Assembly (NCBI RefSeq): GCF_029537375.1
Contig: NZ_CP120679.1
Coordinates: 4,197,501 to 4,261,500 of the forward strand
Length of the DNA stretch: 64,000 nucleotides
Origin: Bacillus sp. HSf4
GTDB lineage: Bacteria; Bacillota; Bacilli; Bacillales; Bacillaceae
Reading direction: 5' to 3'
The translations under genes and the position numbers were made by a program. Positions 4,056 to 44,849 of this stretch are shown here, piece by piece. Position 1 is the first letter of the stretch; each line of letters opens with the position of its first letter. Below the pieces are notes generated by a model. It was not told the DNA's origin, did no database searches, and saw only the letters and a list, made by a program, of their open reading frames with translations.

Positions 4056-6275
4056 ATGGAAAAGAAAAGGAAAATTGATATCTTTCTTGTATTGATTCTC
4101 GCATTATCTGCATGTTTAAACCTTTACGGCATCTGGAATAACGACACAGACAACGCCTACTATACGGCGGCCGTTGAGAGTATGACCCAAAGCTTTCATA
4201 ATTTCTTTTACGCATCTTTTGACCCGGCAGGCTTTGTAACGGTTGATAAACCGCCTGTCGCATTATGGATTCAAACACTGTTCGCTCTCGTATTCGGCGT
4301 GCACGGCTGGAGCGTCGTTCTGCCCGAAGCGATTGCTGAAGTGATCTCTGTATCACTCTTGTACTTTATTGTAAAACCGACCTTCGGAAAAACGGCGGCA
4401 AGAATAGCGGCTCTCGTGATGGCATGTACACCGATTGCCGTTGCCGTCAGCCATACAAACAACGTTGACAGCATTCTCGTCCTTTGTTTGATGATCGCAA
4501 CATGGATGTTGTTTAAAGCCGTCCGCAAAGGAAAAATCGGATGGCTGCTCGGAGCCTTCTGTATGGTCGGCGTCGGCTTTAACGTCAAAATGCTGCAAGC
4601 TTATATGGTATTGCCTGCATTCATGCTATTTTACCTGATGGCAGCAAAGACGACGATTCGCAAAAAAATCGTTTCCCTTATCACAGCAGTTATCGTTCTG
4701 GCAGGTGTTTCCGTTTCCTGGGCGGTCATCGTCGACAGCCAGCCGGAAAGTTCGCGGCCTTATATCGGAAGCAGCCAAACCAACTCGGTACTGGAGCTCG
4801 CTTTTGGCTACAACGGAATCCAGCGTCTTACCGGACAAAACGGTTCAGGCGGAGGAGCTGCTTCTGATCAAGAGCAAAAGAACCAGCAGCAGGAAACACC
4901 ACAGCAACAAAACGATAGTTCCGATAACAGTTCGGACTCAGAAACTGAACAAATGACTCCGCCAAGCGGAAGCGAGATGCCTTCAGGCGGACCTGGCGGC
5001 CAAATGGGCGATGTCCAAAACGGCGGCGGTCCCGGAGGCGGCGGAAACGGTGCAGGTTCTTTCGGCACAGGAACACCCGGGCCACTGAGATTGTTCCAAT
5101 CTGAGCTTTCCGGACAGGCAAGCTGGCTGATTCCGTTCGTCTTCTTCGGCATCATCGGTTTACTAATTACAGGCCTTCGCGGTCAACGAAAATTCAATGA
5201 GACAACGAATGAAACGATTTTCTGGACAATGTGGCTGTTGCCGGTCGCTGGATTCTTCAGTGTCGCCGGATTCTTCCACCACTACTATCTGATCATGCTG
5301 GCAGCACCGATTGCCGCCTTGTCAGGTGCGGGATGGACGGAATTAGTCCGCCTCTATCAGGATGAAAACGGCTGGAAAAAATGGCTTCTTCCGAGCGGTG
5401 TTCTGCTGACAACCGCGTTTGAATTGTATATCTTCAGCCCTTATCTCAGCGAGATCGGAATCGGCTGGAGCATCGCGATCGGCGCTTTCGGAGTCGTCAC
5501 AAGCTGTCTGCTCATCTTTGTCAAAAAAGGAAAGTCGTTCAGCTACTACGTTTCAGTTGCAGCGCTTCTCGGCATGCTGATCGGTCCTTTCTACTGGACT
5601 GCCGCGACCCTCGCTGACGGGGTGAACGGGATGATCCCGCAAGCCGGACCTACATCCGCACAATCATTTGGCGGCGGGGGAGGCGGCAAGATGAACAACA
5701 GCGGCGGACCTCCTGGATTCGGCAGCCAAAATGGCCAAACAGACAATAATGAAAACAACGATAATAACGGGTCAACAGATTCCGACTCCAAGCAAAACAG
5801 CCAAAACGCCAATGAAGCTCCAGCAGGCATGAGCCCTGACAGCTCCGGCCAGTTTCAGCAAGGCAGACGGGGCAGCGGCGGACCTGGAAGCGGCGAATCA
5901 GTCGATGAAGAACTGTTGAGCTACCTGGAAAAGAACAACACTGGAGAAAAATATTTATTTGCAGTCTCCAGCGCAACTTCAGCTCAATCTTACATCATCA
6001 AAACAGGCAAAGCTGTGATGGCGATGGGCGGATTCTCAGGAAGCGACCCGATTTTGACCGTTGAAAAACTCGAAAAGCTTGTCAAAAACGGTGAAGTCAA
6101 ATACTTCATGATTGGCGATGGCAGAGGCCGAGATCATTCGGAACTCACCAACTGGATTAAAGAAAACGGCACGAAGGTTTCCAAAAGCGAATACAGCAGC
6201 TCTTCTTCAGATAACAGTTCTCAGTCGGGCGGACCTGGTGGAAATCAGACGCTCTATAAAGTGGAGCTGGATTGA
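4056..6275 (+). CDS. ykcB: GT39-type polytopic membrane glycosyltransferase (YkcB-like)
   Basis: A 739-residue membrane protein of the ArnT/PMT (GT39) superfamily, which uses polyprenyl-phosphate sugars to modify extracytoplasmic acceptors. The first TM is near residues 9-27. A short acidic loop (NDTDNAYYTAAV) and the conserved segment FVTVDKPPVALWIQ follow, as expected for the catalytic face. About ten hydrophobic helices come next, interrupted by two low-complexity loops rich in Gly, Pro, Gln, Asn and Ser (about 262-345 and 540-620). The C-terminus is a soluble domain including SYIIKTGKAVMAMGGF. The start has the RBS GAGGTGA at correct spacing. The stop overlaps the next gene's start region, and ykcC downstream would supply the lipid-linked sugar donor. 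A paralogue lies at 28854. Confidence 0.88.
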   Translation: MEKKRKIDIFLVLILALSACLNLYGIWNNDTDNAYYTAAVESMTQSFHNFFYASFDPAGFVTVDKPPVALWIQTLFALVFGVHGWSVVLPEAIAEVISVSLLYFIVKPTFGKTAARIAALVMACTPIAVAVSHTNNVDSILVLCLMIATWMLFKAVRKGKIGWLLGAFCMVGVGFNVKMLQAYMVLPAFMLFYLMAAKTTIRKKIVSLITAVIVLAGVSVSWAVIVDSQPESSRPYIGSSQTNSVLELAFGYNGIQRLTGQNGSGGGAASDQEQKNQQQETPQQQNDSSDNSSDSETEQMTPPSGSEMPSGGPGGQMGDVQNGGGPGGGGNGAGSFGTGTPGPLRLFQSELSGQASWLIPFVFFGIIGLLITGLRGQRKFNETTNETIFWTMWLLPVAGFFSVAGFFHHYYLIMLAAPIAALSGAGWTELVRLYQDENGWKKWLLPSGVLLTTAFELYIFSPYLSEIGIGWSIAIGAFGVVTSCLLIFVKKGKSFSYYVSVAALLGMLIGPFYWTAATLADGVNGMIPQAGPTSAQSFGGGGGGKMNNSGGPPGFGSQNGQTDNNENNDNNGSTDSDSKQNSQNANEAPAGMSPDSSGQFQQGRRGSGGPGSGESVDEELLSYLEKNNTGEKYLFAVSSATSAQSYIIKTGKAVMAMGGFSGSDPILTVEKLEKLVKNGEVKYFMIGDGRGRDHSELTNWIKENGTKVSKSEYSSSSSDNSSQSGGPGGNQTLYKVELD

Positions 6276-30997: not shown

Positions 30998-32938
30998 CTA
31001 CAGCGCCGACTTAATAACCTTTCGATAATAAAGTACCGACAACAGACCGAAAATAGAATACAAAGCGGTATACAACACCATCACGATAATCATCGGCGTC
31101 CACAGCTCTGCCCCGAACAAGAACCATCCGGACTTGACGGCAAAGTAGCTGTGAAAAAGACCAATGACCAACGGAATGCCGAAGTTGTAGATTTGCTTGA
31201 TCTGTATGCCCTTCAGCAAGTCCCCCCTTGTAAAACCGAGTTTTCTCAGTATCGTGTAATTCGGTTTCTCATCTTCGCTTTCATCCATTTGTTTAAAATA
31301 AAGGATGCATCCAGATGTGATCAAGAACGTCAGTCCTAAAAAGCCGACGATAAACATGAAAAGGCCGTAAATCGCTTTTTGAGACGTGCGTTCATCGAGG
31401 AGCGACAAATGCCGATCGCTTTGATTCACTTTTGCAAACAGCTTATTTGCCTGCTGCAGCTGATCTTCATTTTTCAGATTGATCCCGATAAATAAACTCG
31501 GTTCTTGCTGTAAGTTTGGATCTTTATTATCGTTTAGACGTTGAAACAGCGCATCATCGACAACCACAGCAGGCAATCCTCCACTGGTGAACTCATAGGA
31601 TAAGAGAAATTCCTTCCTTATCCCTACAAAGTTTAACGATGCCGTCTCCTGTCTGCTCTTGACTTGAATGGTGCCGGAATCTTTAAAAACCATCATGGTT
31701 TGCAAAAGATCATTATATCCGGATAAAATCACGTCTCCCTTCGGTATATCAATCCCGTTAATCTCTTGATCGCTGACAACAGGAAGGGAGAGGTTACGCG
31801 GGTCCCCAGCCATATCTTCAGGATCTCCCTCTAAAACCTGTTCCAGATTGAAGGACGCTTGCAGAACATGGATTTCTTCTTTGCTATAAGAAATGCCATT
31901 TTCGTCTAAGAGCCCCGCAAACCGCTTGGCATCCTTCTGACTGGTCATGGCAAAATCAGCCGCCACACTTTGTTCAGCCACTTTCTCTACGGAATAGTAC
32001 GCAATATAGCATAGGGACAATAAACTGATCGCCAGCGCCGAAACAGCTGTGATAATCGTTAATAACAGCGCGTTTGATTTCATTCGAAACATAATCGACG
32101 ACAAGGATAACACTTCGTAAACATTTAAGTAGCCTCCCTTGCTTTTGCGAATGATGTTGGAGACAAAGCTGACTGAACCTTTATAAAACAGGTACGTGCC
32201 GATCATGACAGACCCGAGAATCAAGCTCATCGCATAGAACAATTCGTTTATGGTCTTGAATTTTCCGCCAAACAGCTCGGTGGAAATGTAATACCCCGAC
32301 AAAATGAACACGATCCCCATTAAACCGATGATCATTTGGAAAACGGATATTCGTTTGACTTGATCCTCTGTAGATGAAGCTGCCTTAAACAAAGATAAAA
32401 TGCTTTGCTTTTTGATAAACGCGTAGTTCATCATCATCACCAAAAGGTAGATTCCGCAGAAGACAATGATGGTTTGGATTAATGCTTCCCAGGAAAAATT
32501 CAGTTTAGCTTTCGCTTGAACATCGACAATTTTGAACAAAATCATCAGCACGAGTTTTGATATCGAAAACCCGGCAAATACACCGATGACTAAAGAGCCA
32601 AAATACAGCATGACATTTTCCGCGCTCAGGATGCGGAAGATTTTTTGCTTCCTCATGCCGATTAATTGAAACAGGCCGATTTCTTGGCTCCGCCTCTTGA
32701 TAAAAATCGTATTGGCGTAGAGAATAAAAACCGCTACAACGGCCACGAGCAAAATAGAGGCTGTTTTTAATGCAGCCGCGCCTTTGATCGAAGATTTCAC
32801 TTCATTGATTGAAGGATCATACTGAAGCGTGACAAATGAGAAATAAAGCGCCACGCTGAAGACTAGCGCAAACACATAGAGGTAATAGTTCCTGATGTTT
32901 TTTCTTAAGTTTCGAAAGATCAGCTGATGAATGCTCAT
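30998..32938 (-). CDS. BceB-type ABC transporter permease (peptide antibiotic detoxification)
   Basis: 646 residues, the size of B. subtilis BceB. About ten TM helices: a first FtsX-like half (about 15-300), a large extracytoplasmic loop (about 315-510) between TM7 and TM8 that defines the Bce family and binds the drug complex, then three final helices. The start overlaps the ATPase gene stop by 4 bp. Bce modules free lipid II-cycle intermediates from peptides such as bacitracin or lantibiotics and also act as the stimulus sensor. The actual drug cannot be told; BceB, PsdB and YxdM are all candidates. Confidence 0.9.
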
Positions 32939-33690
32939 GCTAAAACCCCGCCTAACACACCCTGCGTCTTCATGATATCCTCGAAGAACATCTGCCTGTC
33001 CTGGCCGCCTTTATTGAGCTGCGAATACATTTGGCCGTCCTTTATAAAAACAACCCTGCTGCAGAAGCTGGCGGCGACGGGGTCGTGGGTGACCATAACG
33101 ATCGTAGCATGACGCTTTTGATTTAATCGGCTCAGCTTGTTTAATAAGTCTGATGCGGATTTTGAATCAAGCGCACCTGTCGGTTCATCTGCGAAAATAA
33201 TGTCCGGTTCATGAATAAATGCCCTCGCGGCTGAAGTCCGCTGTTTTTGGCCGCCGGAAATTTCATTCGGATATTTATTTTTCAGCTCGTAGATGCCCAG
33301 TTCATTCGCCACTTCCTCAAACTTTTGATTGGCTTCTTTTTTAGACATCTTCGTAATCGACAACGGCAGCAGAATATTTTCTTTCACCGTCAGCGTGTCT
33401 AATAAGTTGTATTCTTGAAAGATAAATCCGAGATGCTGCTTCCGGAATTCAGCGAGCTGTTTTTCCTTCATACCGGTCATCTCAACCTGGTTGATCGCAA
33501 TCGTTCCGTCGCTTACCTGATCAATGGAAGACAGCACATTCAGCAATGTTGTTTTACCCGAACCAGAAGGCCCCATAATGCCGACAAATTCACCCTTTTC
33601 GATATTGAGGTCGATTCCCTTTAATACTTCTTGTTTATTGAATTTATTTCCGTAGCTTTTTCGAATTTTATTCGCTTCTAATATCATCAT
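32935..33690 (-). CDS. BceA-type ABC transporter ATPase
   Basis: 251 residues; RBS AAAGGAG. Walker [17 protein letters not shown]-loop [12 protein letters not shown], signature [15 protein letters not shown] and Walker [17 protein letters not shown]. The signature reads [11 protein letters not shown], slightly different from the usual GGQQQRVAIAR but normal in Bce ATPases. Its own promoter lies in the gap behind the kinase gene, consistent with induction by the response regulator. Confidence 0.92.
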
Positions 33691-33722
33691 GTCGCAAAAC
33701 TCCTTTTTGTTGGATCATTTTC

Positions 33723-33728
33723 ATTATA
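33723..33728 (-). promoter_or_regulatory. Probable -10 of the bceAB-like promoter
   Basis: Minus strand TATAAT with no recognisable -35 at 17 bp, as expected for a promoter needing a response regulator. I could not find a clear Bce-type binding box in the gap. Confidence 0.4.
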
Positions 33729-33765
33729 AAAAGGCGGACAGCCGTTTTCCTTCGATTTACCTAAC

Positions 33766-33800
33766 AAAAAAGAAAAGCATGTGACATTATTGTCACATGC
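33766..33800 (-). terminator. Terminator after the histidine kinase gene
   Basis: Perfect stem GCATGTGAC/GTCACATGC (33777-33800, overlapping the kinase stop) followed on the minus strand by TTTTCTTTTTTG. It separates the regulator pair from the transporter genes. Confidence 0.85.
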
Positions 33801-34800
33801 CTATGACACGCACAAATTCATTTCGTTTCGGAAAAATTAATGTAAAGGTTGCACCCGCTCCTGGTTTTGAGTCGATTTCAATATCGATCAGCAGCGACTT
33901 GGCCGCTTTTTTTGCTAAATAAAGCCCCATTCCGGTAGATGCTTGATCATGGTGCTCCATTGTTGATGTAAACCCTTTGTCAAACACGCGCGGTATATCT
34001 TTAGGATCAATGCCCCGCCCAAAGTCTTTTACTTCGAGATGCACACGTCCGTCCACTTCATAGCTTTTCACGATAATATCGGACGCTTCACTGTATTTCA
34101 CTGCGTTGGTCAATAGCTGCCGAATGATAAAAGCCAGCCATTTCGAATCGCTGAGCACTTCCCCCGCCTCAAGCTGTATCTCAAACCCGATCCCTTTTTG
34201 AATGCACCAGGATTGTAAATCTTTTATTTCTTTAAATATCAATGATTTCAGTTCAAGGACTTCCGGTGAAAAGTCATTTTCGATAAAGGATATCCTTTTT
34301 TGATGAAGCTGCCGGTCGAGAAGCAGGTGAACGCGCAGCCATTCATACGAGAGCCTCGACTTTAGCGGTTCGTCTTCAATTGTCTCAATGATCAAATGCA
34401 TCGCGGAAAGCGGCGTTTTGACCTCGTGGATCCACGCCATCAGTTCATCCTTTTCATTGTCAAGCGCCAAGCGGTGACGCTTCGCCTCTTGCTTCAATTT
34501 CTCCGTCTGTCCGGTAATATTTCTTTCAACAAGCATTTCAAACGGTGTTTCCGCTTCATGAATATTTGTCACATCAAGATTGTTTTCCCATGCATCAAGG
34601 CTTTTGTAAAATTTGCTTTCCTTCCGAAAGCGGACAAAGATAAAAATCATCAATATCAAAAGCGATAAATAGACGATGTAAAGGATCGGCGTCAATGGGA
34701 TGGACGTATCGACAAAAGCGATCAACACAATCAGAAGCTGCTGACATAAAAATATGGCGATCCAGCTTCGCCTTTCAGTTAAAAATGCTTTGAGCATCAT
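33793..34800 (-). CDS. Intramembrane-sensing histidine kinase, BceS-like
   Basis: 335 residues, the size of BceS. Two TM helices (about 13-33 and 37-58) with almost no extracellular loop, then a coiled linker and DHp/CA domains: H-box MAWIHEVKTPLSAMH, N-box RQLLTNAVKYSE, DFGRGIDP and the G2 box TGMGLYLAKKAAK. Kinases of this group do not sense the drug; they read the flux of the partner Bce transporter, which is encoded just downstream. The start overlaps the regulator stop by 4 bp. Confidence 0.92.
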   Translation of the reverse strand: MMLKAFLTERRSWIAIFLCQQLLIVLIAFVDTSIPLTPILYIVYLSLLILMIFIFVRFRKESKFYKSLDAWENNLDVTNIHEAETPFEMLVERNITGQTEKLKQEAKRHRLALDNEKDELMAWIHEVKTPLSAMHLIIETIEDEPLKSRLSYEWLRVHLLLDRQLHQKRISFIENDFSPEVLELKSLIFKEIKDLQSWCIQKGIGFEIQLEAGEVLSDSKWLAFIIRQLLTNAVKYSEASDIIVKSYEVDGRVHLEVKDFGRGIDPKDIPRVFDKGFTSTMEHHDQASTGMGLYLAKKAAKSLLIDIEIDSKPGAGATFTLIFPKRNEFVRVIGM

Positions 34801-35486
34801 CGTGATCCTTCTTCTTTCGCCATATAGCCTTGGCCGACTTTCGTCTCGATAGATTGTCCCAGGTTCAAGGCATCCAGTTTTTTTCTCAGCCGGTTCACAT
34901 TGACCGTCAGCGTATTATCGCTGACAAAACGCTCATCGTTCCACAAGCTTCTGATCAGCTCTTCCCGGCTGACAATTTTATTTTTTTGGTCTATCAGCTG
35001 CTTCAATATAAACATTTCATTCTTCGTCAGTTCTATCGCTCCTTTTTCATTGCTGACGCGATTTTGTTCAACGTCAATGGTCGCTCCACACCACGTTTTC
35101 AGGATGTGAGGCTCTGTATTATAGTCATACACGCGACGGAAAATCGCTTGGATTTTGGCGATCAGGACATCAAAATGAAACGGTTTTTGTATAAAATCAT
35201 CCGCTCCCAGCTTCATGGACATGACCATATCAGCAGGATGGTCGCGCGAGGATAAAAAAAGAATCGGAACATTTGAACGGGAACGGATCAACCGGCACCA
35301 ATGAAACCCGTCAAATTTAGGGAGCTGAATATCGATGATGACGCAGTCTGGTTTGACCGCCGCAAATTCCTGCGTCACTTCGCTGAAATCGCTGATGCCG
35401 TACACATCATAGGACCAGCCGGATAAGCGTTCTTTTATTTCTTGAAACAGCGATTCATCATCTTCAATCAGCAACAGTTTAAACAT
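34797..35486 (-). CDS. OmpR-family response regulator, BceR-like
   Basis: 229 residues from ATG 35486 (MFKLLLIEDDESLFQEIKER), preferred over the longer frame from 35540. The receiver domain has DD at 9-10, phospho-Asp in CVIIDIQLPKFDG, the conserved Lys in ADDFIQKPF, then a C-terminal winged helix (ELTKNEMFILKQLIDQKNKI and VNRLRKKLD). It should activate the adjacent ABC genes in response to the kinase. Positional similarity to B. subtilis yxdJKLM is possible, while sizes match BceRSAB. Confidence 0.92.
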   Translation of the reverse strand: MFKLLLIEDDESLFQEIKERLSGWSYDVYGISDFSEVTQEFAAVKPDCVIIDIQLPKFDGFHWCRLIRSRSNVPILFLSSRDHPADMVMSMKLGADDFIQKPFHFDVLIAKIQAIFRRVYDYNTEPHILKTWCGATIDVEQNRVSNEKGAIELTKNEMFILKQLIDQKNKIVSREELIRSLWNDERFVSDNTLTVNVNRLRKKLDALNLGQSIETKVGQGYMAKEEGSR

Positions 35487-35563
35487 GGACCTCACCGCGC
35501 TTTTCTTTTTTATGTCAAGTGTATAGCAAATTGTTTTCACATGCTACAGAGAAGGGACAGAAT

Positions 35564-35600: not shown

Positions 35601-37013
<1,413 letters not shown>

Positions 37014-37071
37014 TCACCTCAAAATGATTTTTTTGTCCCCCTCCCGATGGGGAGAGGGGTGATCTTTATAT

Positions 37072-38981
<1,910 letters not shown>

Positions 38982-39038
38982 ATTGCATTTCTTTTTTAAG
39001 ATTTTAATAGCTTCGCCTCACCTCCTTATTTCAGGCAC

Positions 39039-39128
39039 AAAAAAAACCTAAATTACGCCGCCATTTTCGGGACAATATCCCAAAAATGATGCGCAACTTA
39101 GGTTTTGCCTGCATAGCAGTAACAATCC
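39039..39128 (-). promoter_or_regulatory. LicT-type RAT and terminator of the second bgl operon
   Basis: RAT at 39099-39128: GGATTGTTACTGCTATGCAG then GCAAAACCTA. Its 3' end overlaps a 14-bp stem (39045-39058 with 39091-39104) that contains two G-U pairs only in the minus-strand RNA, fixing its direction; a U run follows. No antiterminator gene lies upstream, so the LicT encoded at 20373 is the likely regulator. Confidence 0.92.
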
Positions 39129-39183
39129 TTAGGAACTTGGTGATATTAGTTTGTAACTATACTTTAGCACCTGGGTTTGTTTA

Positions 39184-39197
39184 TGTCAACGCTTTCA
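39184..39197 (-). promoter_or_regulatory. CcpA cre site of the second bgl operon
   Basis: The 14-mer TGAAAGCGTTGACA is identical to that at 20342-20355, upstream of the RAT. Confidence 0.75.
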
Positions 39198-39305
39198 TTA
39201 CGTATGATTCATAAAAAGTGTAATTAACTGCTTTGATCTCACTGTGTGGCAGCTCTCCAGTTTATTTCCTGCCCTTAGATTCAAGGGTTCCCAAAGTATT
39301 GGCAT

Positions 39306-39374
39306 TTCCTTAAAGGTAGATTGAAAGAATCAGGAATAATCGAATCAAAAAGTCCCGGATATTTTGTTAAATAA
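39306..39374 (+). pseudogene. Possible remnant of a GntR-type HTH gene
   Basis: A short open frame reads LKGRLKESGIIESKSPGYFV then Lys and stop, closely resembling the recognition-helix end and beta-wing of a GntR-family DNA-binding domain. No start or RBS is present upstream. It may be what is left of a bgl-operon regulator. Confidence 0.35.
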
Positions 39375-39405
39375 GGATATTTATTCAAAAAATATTAAAT
39401 TATCC

Positions 39406-39434
39406 TTGAAAATGGGTTTCTTCAGTAATACAAT
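39406..39434 (+). promoter_or_regulatory. SigA promoter of the peptide/E1-like island
   Basis: TTGAAA (39406-39411), exactly 17 bp, TACAAT (39429-39434). Start of transcription would be near 39441, 50 bp before the peptide gene. Confidence 0.7.
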
Positions 39435-39490
39435 GGAAATGTCAGCAAATTCAAATCTTTCCAACTATTATTGTGAAAGGCGGTGATACT

Positions 39491-39568
39491 ATGAATTTTG
39501 AAGAATATAAAGTTAGCGCTTCAAATATCCAGCTAAATGGAAAAGTTGTCATTAGTATTTATAAGTAA
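39491..39568 (+). CDS. Candidate RiPP precursor peptide, 25 residues
   Basis: ATG at 39491 with AAAGGCGGTGA upstream. The product begins MNFEEYKVSASNIQLNGK and ends VVISIYK; it is charged at the N-terminus, beta-prone at the C-terminus, and has no Cys. It is followed by a strong hairpin, then by a gene combining an RRE-like domain with a ThiF/E1 domain, and an exporter. This is the arrangement expected for a ribosomally made, modified peptide. A Glu-Glu pair (residues 4-5) recalls pantocin precursors; the C-terminal Lys argues against a microcin C type. It could instead be a leader peptide controlling translation of the next gene. Confidence 0.5.
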   Translation: MNFEEYKVSASNIQLNGKVVISIYK

Positions 39569-39607
39569 TAGAGAGAATACTTAAAGATTGAAGGAGCTGA
39601 CACTATA

Positions 39608-39640
39608 TACAAGAGCCATACATTTTGTACGGCTCTTGTA
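39608..39640 (+). other. Strong hairpin between peptide gene and enzyme gene
   Basis: TACAAGAGCC (39608-39617) pairs with GGCTCTTGTA (39631-39640), extended by TAC/GTA inside. The T-rich tract comes only after about 8 nt, so it is a weak terminator at best. It may set a high peptide-to-enzyme ratio or protect the peptide mRNA. Confidence 0.65.
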
Positions 39641-39676
39641 GTCGATCATTTTTATTGAAAAGAAGGAGCCAAATTA

Positions 39677-40714
39677 ATGAAGTACTACTTAAAAAAAGGA
39701 ATGTTTTGGACTAAAAAAGAGAATGAAATCATCGTTTATTACACAAATTCCAGTTTAAGAAAAGGGATTCGTTCTTCCGATAATGAAAAGCTGTTCCAGC
39801 TTCTCACAATATTATCAGAACCAAAAACATACTCTGAATTGGTTGAAGCAGCCCCATTTGAAAAAAAAGAAAATTTAGATGCCACTCTTTCTTATTTATT
39901 ATCAAAAGGATATATTGCCGTTCAAGAAAGAGACGTTCAGAAAGTTGAAAATCGAGTCCGCAGTTTTGTAGACAGCATCCCAAATGTTTCATATAACGAC
40001 TACAGCCTTTCCATCGAAAAGACGCATATATGTATCATTGGTACCGGTACCGCGGGAAGTTATATACCCGAATGCTTAATTAAGCTAGGATTAAATAGAT
40101 TCACTTTGATTGATCCTGATAAAGTAGAGGAAAATAATTTATATGCCCAGAATTTCTCTTTTCGGGATGTCGGAAGATATAAAGTCGAAGTTCTAAAACA
40201 TAAATACGAAAATGAGTTTAAAACAAGCAACATTACGGCAATTATTCGACAATTGAGCAACTATGAAGATCTTAAGCATGCAGTCGCTCTTGAAGAAATT
40301 GATTATCTGGCATTATGCGCAGATAACAACACTTTAATCATAGATGTTTTGGAAAATATATTTTTGGATTTCCCCAACATCAAAATCATTATTAGCGGTT
40401 ATGCAGTTTTCCAGCAGCATTGTTATTTAATCGATAGAGAAACAAACGCTTCCATTTTAAAAGAGATTAAGCAAAATGTCAGCACGCTAAATGAACTGGA
40501 TGAAGTCATTGTAGAAAATAGCGGTGTTATATTTGATTCCTTATTTTCAGCCATTTCGATTTCAAAAATCATTTTTGATCATGTATTAAACATAAACTCC
40601 CCACAAATTGCCAAAGCGGACTTTCTCAACAACAGGTACTTTATCGGCAATGAGGACGAATACAAAATCCATGAAGAATATGAACACAGATTCACCGATC
40701 AAACTGTTTTGTAA
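39677..40714 (+). CDS. ThiF/E1-like adenylating enzyme with RRE-like N-terminal domain
   Basis: 345 residues; RBS AAGAAGGAGCC. Residues 1-100 form a small winged-helix-like domain (FQLLTILSEPKTYSELVEAA, LLSKGYIAV) of the kind seen as RiPP recognition elements. The E1/ThiF core follows: ATP loop IIGTGTAGSYIPECLIKLGL (120-139), FTLIDPDKVEENNLYAQNF (142-160) in place of the usual D-x-D..SNLxRQ, and LALCADN (211-217). The paired CxxC zinc motifs of ThiF/MoeB are absent. The family activates a carboxyl group as adenylate; in PaaA and MccB the target is a peptide. With the tiny gene upstream and the exporter downstream, peptide modification is the leading idea. The region is visibly AT-rich against its flanks. 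Confidence 0.75.
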   Translation: MKYYLKKGMFWTKKENEIIVYYTNSSLRKGIRSSDNEKLFQLLTILSEPKTYSELVEAAPFEKKENLDATLSYLLSKGYIAVQERDVQKVENRVRSFVDSIPNVSYNDYSLSIEKTHICIIGTGTAGSYIPECLIKLGLNRFTLIDPDKVEENNLYAQNFSFRDVGRYKVEVLKHKYENEFKTSNITAIIRQLSNYEDLKHAVALEEIDYLALCADNNTLIIDVLENIFLDFPNIKIIISGYAVFQQHCYLIDRETNASILKEIKQNVSTLNELDEVIVENSGVIFDSLFSAISISKIIFDHVLNINSPQIAKADFLNNRYFIGNEDEYKIHEEYEHRFTDQTVL

Positions 40715-40743
40715 TGAACCCTAAAAAATAGGTGGGTATTCGA

Positions 40744-42000
40744 ATGATAAGTGTACTAAAGATAAAAAATTTCTTTCTATTATTCAGTGGCAGATTGTTA
40801 ACGAATTTGGGGGACAGCATCTATAGCGTCGCGGCTATGTGGCTTGTATTTAAATTAACCGGAAGCTCTTTTTACACCGGTCTCGCGGGAATGCTGATCA
40901 TGCTTCCGGGAATATTTGAGTTTTTAGTTGGGCCCTTAATTGACAGATGGCGTTTAAAATCAATCTTGATTTATACTCAGTGGATTCAGGCTTTTGTTGT
41001 CATGGCCGTTCCCCTCTCATACTTTCTCGGTTTTTTAAATGTATGGCTTGTCATTTTTGTCATGCTTATAGCTACTTCTATTGAACAAATCGTCTATCCG
41101 GCACAGCAAGCAGCTTTACCGAAGCTATTGAAAAAAGAGGATCTTGTAGCCGGCAACTCTTTGATGACTTTTGCTTATCAGGGAACAGATATTGTTTTGG
41201 TTGGATTATCCGGTATGTTAATTGTATACATAGGTGTCATCAATATATATCTGATTGATGTATTGACATTTGTTTTAGCTGCGCTCATCTTTGGGCTCAT
41301 GAAATTTCCCCTAACTGACACGAACCCTTCATCATTAGAGAGCAAGAAATCTTACTTCAGTGAATTAAAAGAAGGAAAAGATTTCGTTAAAAACTCAATT
41401 ATTCTTAAAATGTTGATTCCTTTAACAATTATAAACTTCATTTTTGGTATGATTACAGCAATTATGCCTGAGTTTTCAAGCCATATAGGAGGAGAAGCAT
41501 TTTACGGCTATTTTCTGTGTACAATGTCTATTTCTTTATTGCTGGGTTCGCTATTATCCCAGATTCTAACTAAATTACCTTTAGGATATACGACCATTTC
41601 TTGCTTTTTTCTCTCAGCGTTCTTTTGGTTTTGCTCATACTTATCAAGCCATCCTCTCATGATTTTAATCAATTTCGGACTTGCTTTTATTCCCATTGGA
41701 ATTCATAACGTTATATTAATTTCTACGATTCAATCATTGGTACCTGAAGAGCTTACAGGAAGGGTATTTGCGTTGGTCGGTTCCCTGTCGGCATTGTTTT
41801 TACCGATAGGTTCCCTTTTGGGAGGCTTTTTATCAACTCAAATCGAAGTTAAATTAATATATGGATTGGGGAGTTTTGCAATCTTATTTATTGCAGCGTA
41901 TTGGCTGCTGACTTCAAAATTACGGGCACTGCCTGCACCAGGCGATGTTTCTGAAGATCATCCTCAATTATCTGCTAACCATGAAAACAGTTTCAACTAA
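40744..42000 (+). CDS. MFS exporter of the peptide island
   Basis: 418 residues from ATG 40744 (GGTGGG 7 bp upstream; a GTG at 40732 is less likely). Twelve TM helices of the MFS_3/MefA-EntS drug-efflux type, beginning MISVLKIKNFFLLFSGRLLT; motif A-like GPLIDRWRLKSILI follows TM2. The C-terminal tail is acidic and soluble. Thirty bases after the E1-like gene, it probably exports the modified product and may confer self-resistance, as PaaB-like and other small-peptide exporters do. Confidence 0.85.
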   Translation: MISVLKIKNFFLLFSGRLLTNLGDSIYSVAAMWLVFKLTGSSFYTGLAGMLIMLPGIFEFLVGPLIDRWRLKSILIYTQWIQAFVVMAVPLSYFLGFLNVWLVIFVMLIATSIEQIVYPAQQAALPKLLKKEDLVAGNSLMTFAYQGTDIVLVGLSGMLIVYIGVINIYLIDVLTFVLAALIFGLMKFPLTDTNPSSLESKKSYFSELKEGKDFVKNSIILKMLIPLTIINFIFGMITAIMPEFSSHIGGEAFYGYFLCTMSISLLLGSLLSQILTKLPLGYTTISCFFLSAFFWFCSYLSSHPLMILINFGLAFIPIGIHNVILISTIQSLVPEELTGRVFALVGSLSALFLPIGSLLGGFLSTQIEVKLIYGLGSFAILFIAAYWLLTSKLRALPAPGDVSEDHPQLSANHENSFN

Positions 42001-42004
42001 ATCT

Positions 42005-42032
42005 AATAGGGGGCACATGTCCCCCCCTATTC
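42005..42032. terminator. Hairpin between convergent genes
   Basis: AATAGGGGG/CCCCCCCTATT-type stem around CACATGT. GC-rich and stable but without a T run on either side, so termination is likely only partial. Confidence 0.5.
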
Positions 42033-42036
42033 AAAA

Positions 42037-42573
42037 TTATCTATAATGTCTTCTTTTCCATCTTTTCCGAACACCAACCGCTCTTTGAGCATATAATGTT
42101 CTCCGGCGTTTTTTATAATGCTGCTCGTTTGTTTCATCCTCTTCCGGCTTCTTCTCCTTTTGAAGAATAAATCCCGCGACTAAAAAAGGGATGCCTGAAA
42201 GATTTGTGAAGATATTTTTAATCCCCATGGCTAAAATAAAAGCTCCCCAACCAGAAAATGGGTTGTTTCTGATTTTTATATAGGCCGTGATTTCCAGGGC
42301 AATAAAAAGAAGCGACTGCGCTAATATCACAATCAGCATGATCAAAATGAAAAGGAGGACTAAATTAAAGAAAGTGCCCGAGTAAACCATCATTTTCAGC
42401 ATGTCGACGAAAGTCGCAGCCTGCATATATCCGTCTGTGACATTTGGATTCCAAACAGCATAAGAATCAAACTGATGTTTGATATGAAAAAAAGCGAATA
42501 AAATGATAAACCAATAAATGATATGTAAGCTGATGCCTAATAAGGTGAGTCTGTTTGCTGCTTTGTTTTGCAT
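42037..42573 (-). CDS. Four-helix membrane protein downstream of yxeI
   Basis: 178 residues from ATG 42573 (AGAAGGA upstream; ATG 42594 overlaps the yxeI stop). Four TM helices (about 8-28, 60-95, 105-125, 127-145), a small extracellular domain (HQFDSYAVWNPNVTDGYMQ) and a very basic C-terminal tail (KKRRRTLYAQRAVGVRKRWK). This resembles DUF4064-like proteins, but I am not certain. Translationally coupled to yxeI. Function unknown. Confidence 0.65.
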   Translation of the reverse strand: MQNKAANRLTLLGISLHIIYWFIILFAFFHIKHQFDSYAVWNPNVTDGYMQAATFVDMLKMMVYSGTFFNLVLLFILIMLIVILAQSLLFIALEITAYIKIRNNPFSGWGAFILAMGIKNIFTNLSGIPFLVAGFILQKEKKPEEDETNEQHYKKRRRTLYAQRAVGVRKRWKRRHYR

Positions 42574-43730: not shown

Positions 43731-44849
43731 TCAAAAAGAAGTATTATCTTTTTTATATTCTAACTTTCTAATTATGTCATAAGTTTTTTGATTGTTGTAA
43801 AATAAAATACGATAAGAGTCCCCTCCATAAAAACAAGATTTTTTAATGTTTAATAAAATGTCATCTTCATATTCAGTTACCATATTATCTTCATATATAC
43901 AATTTTGAACTTTTAAAAAATACTTCATCGCCTTTTCTTCAACCTTTTTGCTTACATGTTCTAATATTAGTTTTGCTATCAGTATTGTTGATATAATAGG
44001 AAAGCTTATAAAAGCAATGTATATAGATACTTGTCCAGAAATAAAATGATTGTGGCTCAGCATACTTACCCCTAAGTTTAAAAAATTAAAGATCACTATA
44101 ATTGAGCTTGCAATATTAAGATAATTGAGATACTGTTTTAAGTTCAATGTTGATTGGAATATAAGGATATAAATCAATAACAAACAACATGATAGAAAGG
44201 TAAATATAAGTAACCCCCATAAATCATGTAGTATGTTCAATAGTTTTTTATCATTTATTCTATATAATCCGGTTGGAAATAACCAATATTTCGCTCTTTC
44301 TTGAATGGATAAAATCAAACTTATGCTTTGAGTAATTATAGAAATTTTTAATCCCCACTCCAAAAAATAACCGAAAATGATTTCAAATATATTATGTGTT
44401 TTTTTGAGGTGAATGCAAAAGGAACCTAGCAGGTAAATAATTAAAATGAATATAGGAAATTGGGCAATATAATCATTGCTATCAAAAAAAAATAGAATAG
44501 GTATACTTATTGTCATTAATATTGCTGAAATAATAGCATTTTGAAACTCTTTTAGTCTGTTATGGTAATCTTTTTTATAATCAATGTAATAATAATCAAA
44601 AAGTTTATTACTATTATTGTAACATTTAAATAAATATTGAAATCGAAAATAAAGTACACTCACAAAAAATAAAAAAAATATACTGTAAGAAGATACTCTT
44701 ATTATTTCTTCAATAAAAGAGTTACCTAATTTTCTATCTAAGTATTGAACACAGAAAAAAGGTGTAAAAACCAGATAAAAAAAACCCAAACTTGAAATTT
44801 TGATAATTTTATTTATATTATATTTCAAGAAAGTTATTATTTTCTTCAT
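43731..44849 (-). CDS. AT-rich orphan membrane protein
   Basis: 372 residues with about eight predicted TM helices, many Ile, Phe, Lys and Asn, and codon use far more AT-rich than its neighbours. No family recognised. N-terminus MKKIITFLKYNINKIIKISS; a C-terminal cytoplasmic segment (KKVEEKAMKYFLKVQNCIYE and on) follows the last helix. Its composition and isolation suggest recent acquisition. Confidence 0.6.
   Translation of the reverse strand: MKKIITFLKYNINKIIKISSLGFFYLVFTPFFCVQYLDRKLGNSFIEEIIRVSSYSIFFLFFVSVLYFRFQYLFKCYNNSNKLFDYYYIDYKKDYHNRLKEFQNAIISAILMTISIPILFFFDSNDYIAQFPIFILIIYLLGSFCIHLKKTHNIFEIIFGYFLEWGLKISIITQSISLILSIQERAKYWLFPTGLYRINDKKLLNILHDLWGLLIFTFLSCCLLLIYILIFQSTLNLKQYLNYLNIASSIIVIFNFLNLGVSMLSHNHFISGQVSIYIAFISFPIISTILIAKLILEHVSKKVEEKAMKYFLKVQNCIYEDNMVTEYEDDILLNIKKSCFYGGDSYRILFYNNQKTYDIIRKLEYKKDNTSF

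Follow-up and report, generated by a model that had tools for sequence, protein, structure and literature searches.

A candidate minimal TLAT-type RiPP cassette with a Lys-terminal precursor peptide in Bacillus sp. HSf4

We describe a small accessory locus in a 64,000-nucleotide stretch of the genome of Bacillus sp. HSf4 (NCBI RefSeq assembly GCF_029537375.1, contig NZ_CP120679.1, positions 4,197,501 to 4,261,500), which is called the window below and whose coordinates are used throughout unless stated otherwise. The host genome (G000 in our genome set) is a single contig of 4,423,396 bases. The locus consists of genes for a tiny peptide, for an enzyme that joins a domain similar to a RiPP recognition element (RRE) to a ThiF/E1 core, and for a transporter of the major facilitator superfamily (MFS), all of them on the plus strand and head to tail. 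An initial annotation, made from the DNA letters alone, had taken it for a candidate undescribed locus of ribosomally synthesised and post-translationally modified peptides (RiPPs) with a precursor, an RRE-E1 enzyme and an exporter. This view is well supported by our results, and the locus probably belongs with the RiPPs of ThiF-like adenylyltransferases (TLAT-RiPPs). The features are the following:

39218..42127, no strand: accessory insert (cassette) between a phosphotransferase system (PTS) gene and a DUF4064-like gene, with empty sites in relatives
39406..39434, plus strand: promoter TTGAAA-17-TACAAT, not significant in a scan alone, with an aligned counterpart in Bacillus sp. WMMC1349
39491..39568, plus strand: precursor peptide gene, 25 amino acids with C-terminal Lys, from the open reading frame (ORF) list and conserved in WMMC1349 (L001:4838-4915)
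39608..39640, plus strand: RNA hairpin between the precursor and enzyme genes, from its folding energy and pairs kept in WMMC1349
39677..40714, plus strand: RRE-like and ThiF/E1 adenylyltransferase gene, 345 amino acids, from PF00899, a family profile and an AlphaFold2 model
40744..42000, plus strand: MFS exporter gene, 418 amino acids, from PF07690/PF05977, 77% identical to the WMMC1349 protein

We regard the cassette as one insert because five collinear relatives have empty sites at this place. In each of the five, collinear homology ends at 39201-39217 and restarts at 42128-42140, with 0.13-0.19 kb in place of 2.9 kb; a sixth relative (L116), with a contig end nearby, was excluded from the comparison. 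GC content in 1-kb windows is 0.33-0.38 at 39000-42499 as compared to 0.48-0.51 at 36000-38999, in agreement with the AT-rich patch noticed before. The insert contains three genes only: no radical SAM gene or other further enzyme, no peptidase, no regulator and no immunity gene was found in it. There is also no YcaO gene near the cassette, as had been stated, the only one in the genome being at 1,086,852-1,087,868 of the contig, over 1 Mb distant in either direction. DNA that can be aligned with WMMC1349 begins shortly ahead of the promoter and reaches the end of the pump gene (39387-41957), and therefore this stretch is taken as the functional unit.

The precursor gene encodes MNFEEYKVSASNIQLNGKVVISIYK, a peptide that has Lys as the last residue and contains no Cys, so that the 25-codon gene described at first is borne out. 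Its ribosome binding site, AAAGGCGGTGAT, is present and fair, not perfect; it was missed by a strict Shine–Dalgarno (SD) pattern. The WMMC1349 peptide also has 25 residues, 15 of which are identical to those of the window peptide (pattern M.FEEY....SN.QLNG.V.IS..K), and the C-terminal Lys is retained though the preceding residues differ, IY in the window (SIYK) and GW in WMMC1349 (SGWK). Nonsynonymous (dN) and synonymous (dS) divergence of the peptide gene are 0.35 and 2.32, i.e. dN/dS is about 0.15, which is comparable to the rest of the cassette (0.27 and 1.95 for E1, 0.14 and 1.58 for MFS). When the same 27 substitutions were placed at random in 200,000 simulations, the frame was still open at or above the observed identity in a fraction of 0.000145. 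A search of 199 genomes for the peptide gave matches at E<=0.05 in only two, G000 and WMMC1349 (G006), which are those with an intact E1; a third match (G153) has an E of 0.0997 and an internal stop. Conservation of the small ORF, on which the initial annotation had made its reading depend, is seen at the one other intact locus, L001. The peptide gene is real and under purifying selection, with the single pair of loci giving support for this and no proof.

The enzyme matches PF00899 (ThiF) at residues 112-256 with 68.6 bits. A profile built from 22 E1 relatives has MccB (E 2.9e-65) and then PaaA (E 4.4e-44) as top solved structures, and aligns with MccB from position 59 on and with PaaA from 43 on. 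In the AlphaFold2 model (mean pLDDT 86.9, pTM 0.75) the N-terminus is built of strands 2-5, 9-14, 17-22 and 24-31, helices 36-45, 52-58 and 64-77 and a strand 80-83, followed by the E1 Rossmann core. This predicted N-terminus appears winged-helix-like, as expected of an RRE, and the model agrees with the winged-helix-like N-terminus suggested earlier. A model of the peptide fused through a linker to E1 (mean pLDDT 78.4) has peptide residues 3-7 as a strand whose partner strand was not reported; confidence is low there (62 in the first block, below 50 for residues 8-23 and 31-60), and the fused model agrees with leader docking weakly at best.

Across the 22 aligned E1s there is no variation at G122, G124, G127, D148, N154, K169 and D216, and very little at D146 and Q158. 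The GxGxxG motif is present in the window E1 and the Arg of the NLxRQ motif is replaced by Ala157. This Arg is missing in six of 26 E1s, with Ala in the window, WMMC1349, L. plantarum and L. salivarius proteins and His in L046 and L083; L090 was missed by the script pattern and keeps the Arg on reading. In EnfB, Arg167 is described as essential for ATP binding, and judging from spacing it probably corresponds to the NLxRQ Arg. In the Arg-less E1 the phosphates may be served by a different residue, or its reaction may not be the same. The window E1 and its clade contain no CxxC pairs; of the 26 E1s, eight have two and two have one. In the tree of the 26 E1s the window, WMMC1349 and L. plantarum proteins group together (100/100) on a long branch, with the L. 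plantarum protein as sister to the other two (100/100), distant from the IndF-like row; several rows of this tree have long branches, and support is weak at most deep forks. A profile of the Arg-less type matches an IndF-like protein over columns 48-221 with 98.8% probability.

Partial matches of ThiF, MoeB and PADLOC E1-E2 models to the E1 domain would also fit an ordinary ThiF/MoeB-like or defence-type E1 that has nothing to do with the peptide. NCBIfam scores are, however, far under the cut-offs (best 56.1 vs 159 bits), no E2, ThiS/MoaD or thiamine gene is found in the insert, and the AlphaFold2 model has the additional winged-helix-like domain. We find such an E1 barely conceivable here. 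A thiamine, molybdopterin or ubiquitin-like role was rejected on the NCBIfam and PADLOC results. Genes of these kinds, which were thought at the outset to speak against a RiPP enzyme, do not stand beside the E1 at the WMMC1349 or the L. plantarum locus. A far weaker plasmid match from S. saprophyticus (26% of the protein covered) lies in a thiamine operon and is an ordinary ThiF.

In a search of about 5.8 billion clustered proteins, the enzyme fell into a cluster of its own (6 member sequences on 4 contigs) and had one close relative and one distant match; the L. plantarum type and one weak match came from two profile searches. The closest relative (64%) is that of WMMC1349, whose locus L001 keeps peptide, hairpin, promoter, E1 and MFS. 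Within 44 genomes of the genus an intact copy is found in G000 and G006, and G014 has a copy decayed by deletion, with parts of the MFS gene and E1 residues 264-320 left. A phage link was rejected: there was no match in phage records and no confirmed relative in viral contigs.

Micro-ORFs preceded by an SD sequence (15-60 codons, ending at most 250 bases upstream) were found before 17 of 25 RRE-E1 genes and before 7 of 90 controls, these being other genes from the same loci with 250 codons or more. The 25 E1s were taken from loci inspected with wide flanks, most weaker matches being outside the set. Left out were L038 (thiamine operon), L048 (MoeB-like), L051 (a longer, different E1), L088, the near-duplicates L033, L034 and L084, and P0003 (no locus). 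Some of the 17 micro-ORFs (L046, L090) are doubtful, and the window peptide was scored as a miss with its SD outside the pattern. L043 and L047 have three tandem micro-ORF copies before the RRE-E1 gene (MKIEELELEVELDELVHRC; MKKIVVRKLETVSVPQLRPGT). In L089 an IndA-like peptide with the end NTTNWYFI is encoded together with an IndF-like E1 and a protein with an M16-peptidase-like start (read by eye), and in this way the set is linked to published biochemistry.

The motif [FI]E[ED][ILY] occurs in 7 of 18 peptides and none of 20,000 shuffles gets to 7, with the motif picked after inspection of the peptides and some of the 18 closely related. It reads FEEY in the window peptide and FEEI in the IndA-like peptide of L089. 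As it is shared with other TLAT peptides, FEEY is probably a leader motif. The EE pair (residues 4-5; EEY at 4-6) lies inside it; EE as a pantocin-like core was rejected for this reason. The C-terminal residues of the 18 peptides are very diverse and Lys is found only in the window and in WMMC1349.

For the promoter, described earlier as a good SigA promoter, the scan by itself is not significant (18 sites vs 13.1, sd 3.8, in shuffles), and what speaks for it is the aligned sequence TTGAAA-17-TACGAT in WMMC1349. The hairpin is as stable as had been noted (−18.6 kcal/mol, z −6.2, 0 of 200 shuffles equally stable), and its comparison to WMMC1349 gives 12 common pairs, 2 altered on both sides and none broken. 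In the mcc operon a hairpin terminator lies between mccA and mccB and the peptide is made in excess (PMC6495379). The hairpin of the cassette would probably likewise allow an excess of precursor over enzyme.

Attenuators likewise have a short ORF and then a hairpin ahead of the enzyme gene, and leader peptides also can be conserved. The short ORF could then be a regulatory leader where ribosome stalling and the hairpin control E1 and pump, the E1 substrate being elsewhere. Three observations are at odds with this: the E1 ribosome site is left uncovered by the hairpin, the frequency of micro-ORFs before RRE-E1 genes and the tandem copies in two loci are as expected of precursors, and one micro-ORF is IndA-like, a class proven as enzyme substrates (PMC12150305). 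We consider a regulatory leader very unlikely.

The MFS gene has an alternative GTG start at 40732, from which the protein would have 422 amino acids instead of the 418 counted from ATG. In 30 similar MFS loci, an E1 is nearby in four (the window, WMMC1349, G109 and the decayed G014 copy) and absent in 26, and a TLAT-specific pump was rejected on this count.

RRE-ThiF enzymes adenylate the precursor carboxylate and the nucleophile then varies, so that a phosphoramidate (MccB), a bicyclic core (PaaA), a thiolactone (GrcB), an imide (EnfB) or an indolylamide (IndF) is the outcome in the different classes (PMC12150305, PMC12250964). The initial annotation weighed the locus only against pantocin A and microcin C; GRC, enterofaecin and indolylamide have to be considered as well, as these classes are published (PMC12250964, PMC12150305). 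Its statement that the locus fits neither of the two fully was correct, and the other TLAT classes are not matched either. Like known TLAT loci, the cassette has an adjacent conserved precursor gene and an exporter gene (MFS). The peptide lacks an EEN core, Trp at −3 with terminal Ile, a WWIVI-type end, a (V/I)RKA leader, an Asn end and Cys. Pantocin A (PaaP/PaaA) is similar in having an E1 enzyme with an RRE (RRE-like in the window) and a short precursor, with PaaA the second-best solved structure, but the window has no EEN core and no 2OG-Fe(II) oxygenase (PaaB), and an MFS transporter stands in place of EamA. Indolylamide (IndA/IndF) shares with the window the minimal cluster, the FEE leader-like motif and the IndF-like profile match given above, whereas the C-terminal Trp-x-x-Ile and the M16 peptidase are missing and the E1s are far apart in the tree. 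Enterofaecin (EnfA/EnfB) and GRC (GrcA/GrcB) have an RRE-ThiF enzyme that activates the precursor carboxylate (PMC12250964), as the window enzyme would, but WWIVI, the (V/I)RKA leader, C-terminal Cys, the radical SAM gene and the EnfB-essential Arg are all absent from the window. Since the locus matches none of the described classes, it can still be called undescribed. A literature search found no paper on the locus, be it on TLAT-RiPPs in these Bacillus species or on Lys-terminal or caprolactam RiPPs, with subscription papers outside its scope. A published network of 27,400 RRE-ThiF proteins (PMC12150305) may include the window E1 without comment.

Microcin C is similar in the order of precursor, hairpin, E1 and pump (PMC6495379) and in MccB being the best solved-structure match. 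It differs in its heptapeptide ending with Asn, where the window has 25 residues ending with Lys, and the window E1 is without the NLxRQ Arg and CxxC pairs, the insert without MccD/E/F genes. Membership in microcin C was rejected, as both peptides end with Lys and not with Asn. A microcin-C-like Trojan horse could be formed if E1 left a nucleotide on the C-terminus without closing a ring; the gene order of mccABC with a hairpin behind the first gene and the MccB match would suit such a peptide-nucleotide, and microcin C too is exported whole, which is in line with the lack of a leader peptidase in the insert. MccB chemistry, however, requires the side chain of a C-terminal Asn, and the insert has no MccE/MccF-like immunity gene. 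A peptide-nucleotide is in our opinion improbable.

Three plasmid-borne types are related by a short ORF, an Arg-less E1 (AQ or HQ) and MFS, namely L. plantarum L032, L. salivarius L035 and L083/L084 of G205/G245; different from the window, their E1 has a C-terminal extension with HExxH, the peptides end with WILI, CLAFC and CVAFC, and L. plantarum has Rgg. The L. plantarum plasmid locus (L032:6887-9806) encodes the Rgg regulator, a 23-residue hydrophobic peptide ending WILI, the E1-HExxH fusion and MFS. The peptide, read in L032 and not in L033 or L034, has Trp at −3 and terminal Ile as in IndA, and may be a modified Rgg pheromone. In the L. salivarius plasmid (L035:5467-5571) the peptide before the E1-protease (HExxH) fusion ends CLAFC, and in L083 (reverse strand, about 5714-5770; G205, G245) the one before the HExxH fusion ends CVAFC. 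In L084 the start is frameshifted or read differently, and the MFS frame is shorter. With Cys at −4 and at the end, the CxAFC peptides would, if cyclised between their Cys-containing ends, give by a different route five-residue thiolactones that resemble autoinducing peptides.

Our results make it likely that 39218..42127 is a self-contained accessory TLAT-type RiPP cassette with the 25-residue peptide as the substrate of E1. It would be a very rare, minimal form of TLAT-RiPPs with an unpredicted product. The RRE would bind the N-terminal FEEY strand of the peptide, E1 with ATP would adenylate the carboxylate of the C-terminal Lys25, and ring closure by an internal nucleophile would then release water (−18.01 Da). 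By analogy with the family, some cyclodehydration of the peptide is somewhat more probable than none. The first choice of nucleophile is the epsilon-amine of Lys25, whose attack would give a C-terminal epsilon-caprolactam, because the residue is kept and because in MccB the side chain of the C-terminal Asn attacks to form a succinimide; the caprolactam as such is a tentative proposal. The second choice is the conserved Ser22, three residues from the end, the same distance as in the Trp-Ile ring of IndA. Export of the product and protection of the producer would fall to the MFS protein. The absence of a peptidase points to export of the uncut peptide or to trimming by a host protease.

Several points weigh against this interpretation. 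The strongest caution is the missing NLxRQ Arg (Ala157). Only two intact loci were found and the conservation argument rests on this one pair; the L. plantarum relative has a very different peptide. Peptidase, immunity gene and regulator are all missing from the insert, and the MFS is a common type that is not TLAT-specific. A canonical U-tract is absent after the hairpin in WMMC1349, and for this reason the hairpin may work through processing or stability instead of as an mcc-type terminator. Finally, the proposed chemistry is carried over from the family.

ThiF-like RiPP enzymes are a young family, and the described classes differ in the bond made. The window clade has a conserved C-terminal Lys, seen in none of these classes, and is without the Arg called essential in EnfB. 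It is conceivable, though on present evidence doubtful, that the Arg-less E1 makes a Lys25 caprolactam (or a Ser22-Lys25 lactone) and is the founder of a TLAT-RiPP class with Lys-terminal precursors and an ATP site solved in its own way. If this is true, the cassette would be among the smallest complete ones possible, with a precursor, one enzyme and one pump. With only three genes, and about 2.6 kb between the promoter and the pump end, the pathway is directly testable by co-expression.

The neighbours on both sides are on the minus strand. To the left are a PTS transporter and a GH1 enzyme (bglP/bglH-like), and to the right a DUF4064-like protein (under the Pfam cut-off), a choloylglycine-hydrolase-type (CBAH-type) protein and a GH43 enzyme; for the last two we assume the names yxeI and abn2. 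Before the PTS gene, 39019-39178 (minus strand) matches a bglG/LicT cis-regulatory element below threshold (35.1 of 80 bits), and the cassette is inserted just behind it. A second, separate insert at 43731-44849 (minus strand), between the CBAH-type and GH43 genes, encodes a 372-residue protein in DNA of 24-28% GC. Pfam, NCBIfam and PADLOC gave no match for it, it is missing from the neighbourhood of the CBAH-type gene in six relatives, and a search of 298 other genomes gave no relative. At 30998-35540 (minus strand) a response regulator, a sensor kinase, an ABC ATPase and a 646-residue permease form a module that we take to resemble the BceRS-BceAB peptide-antibiotic module.

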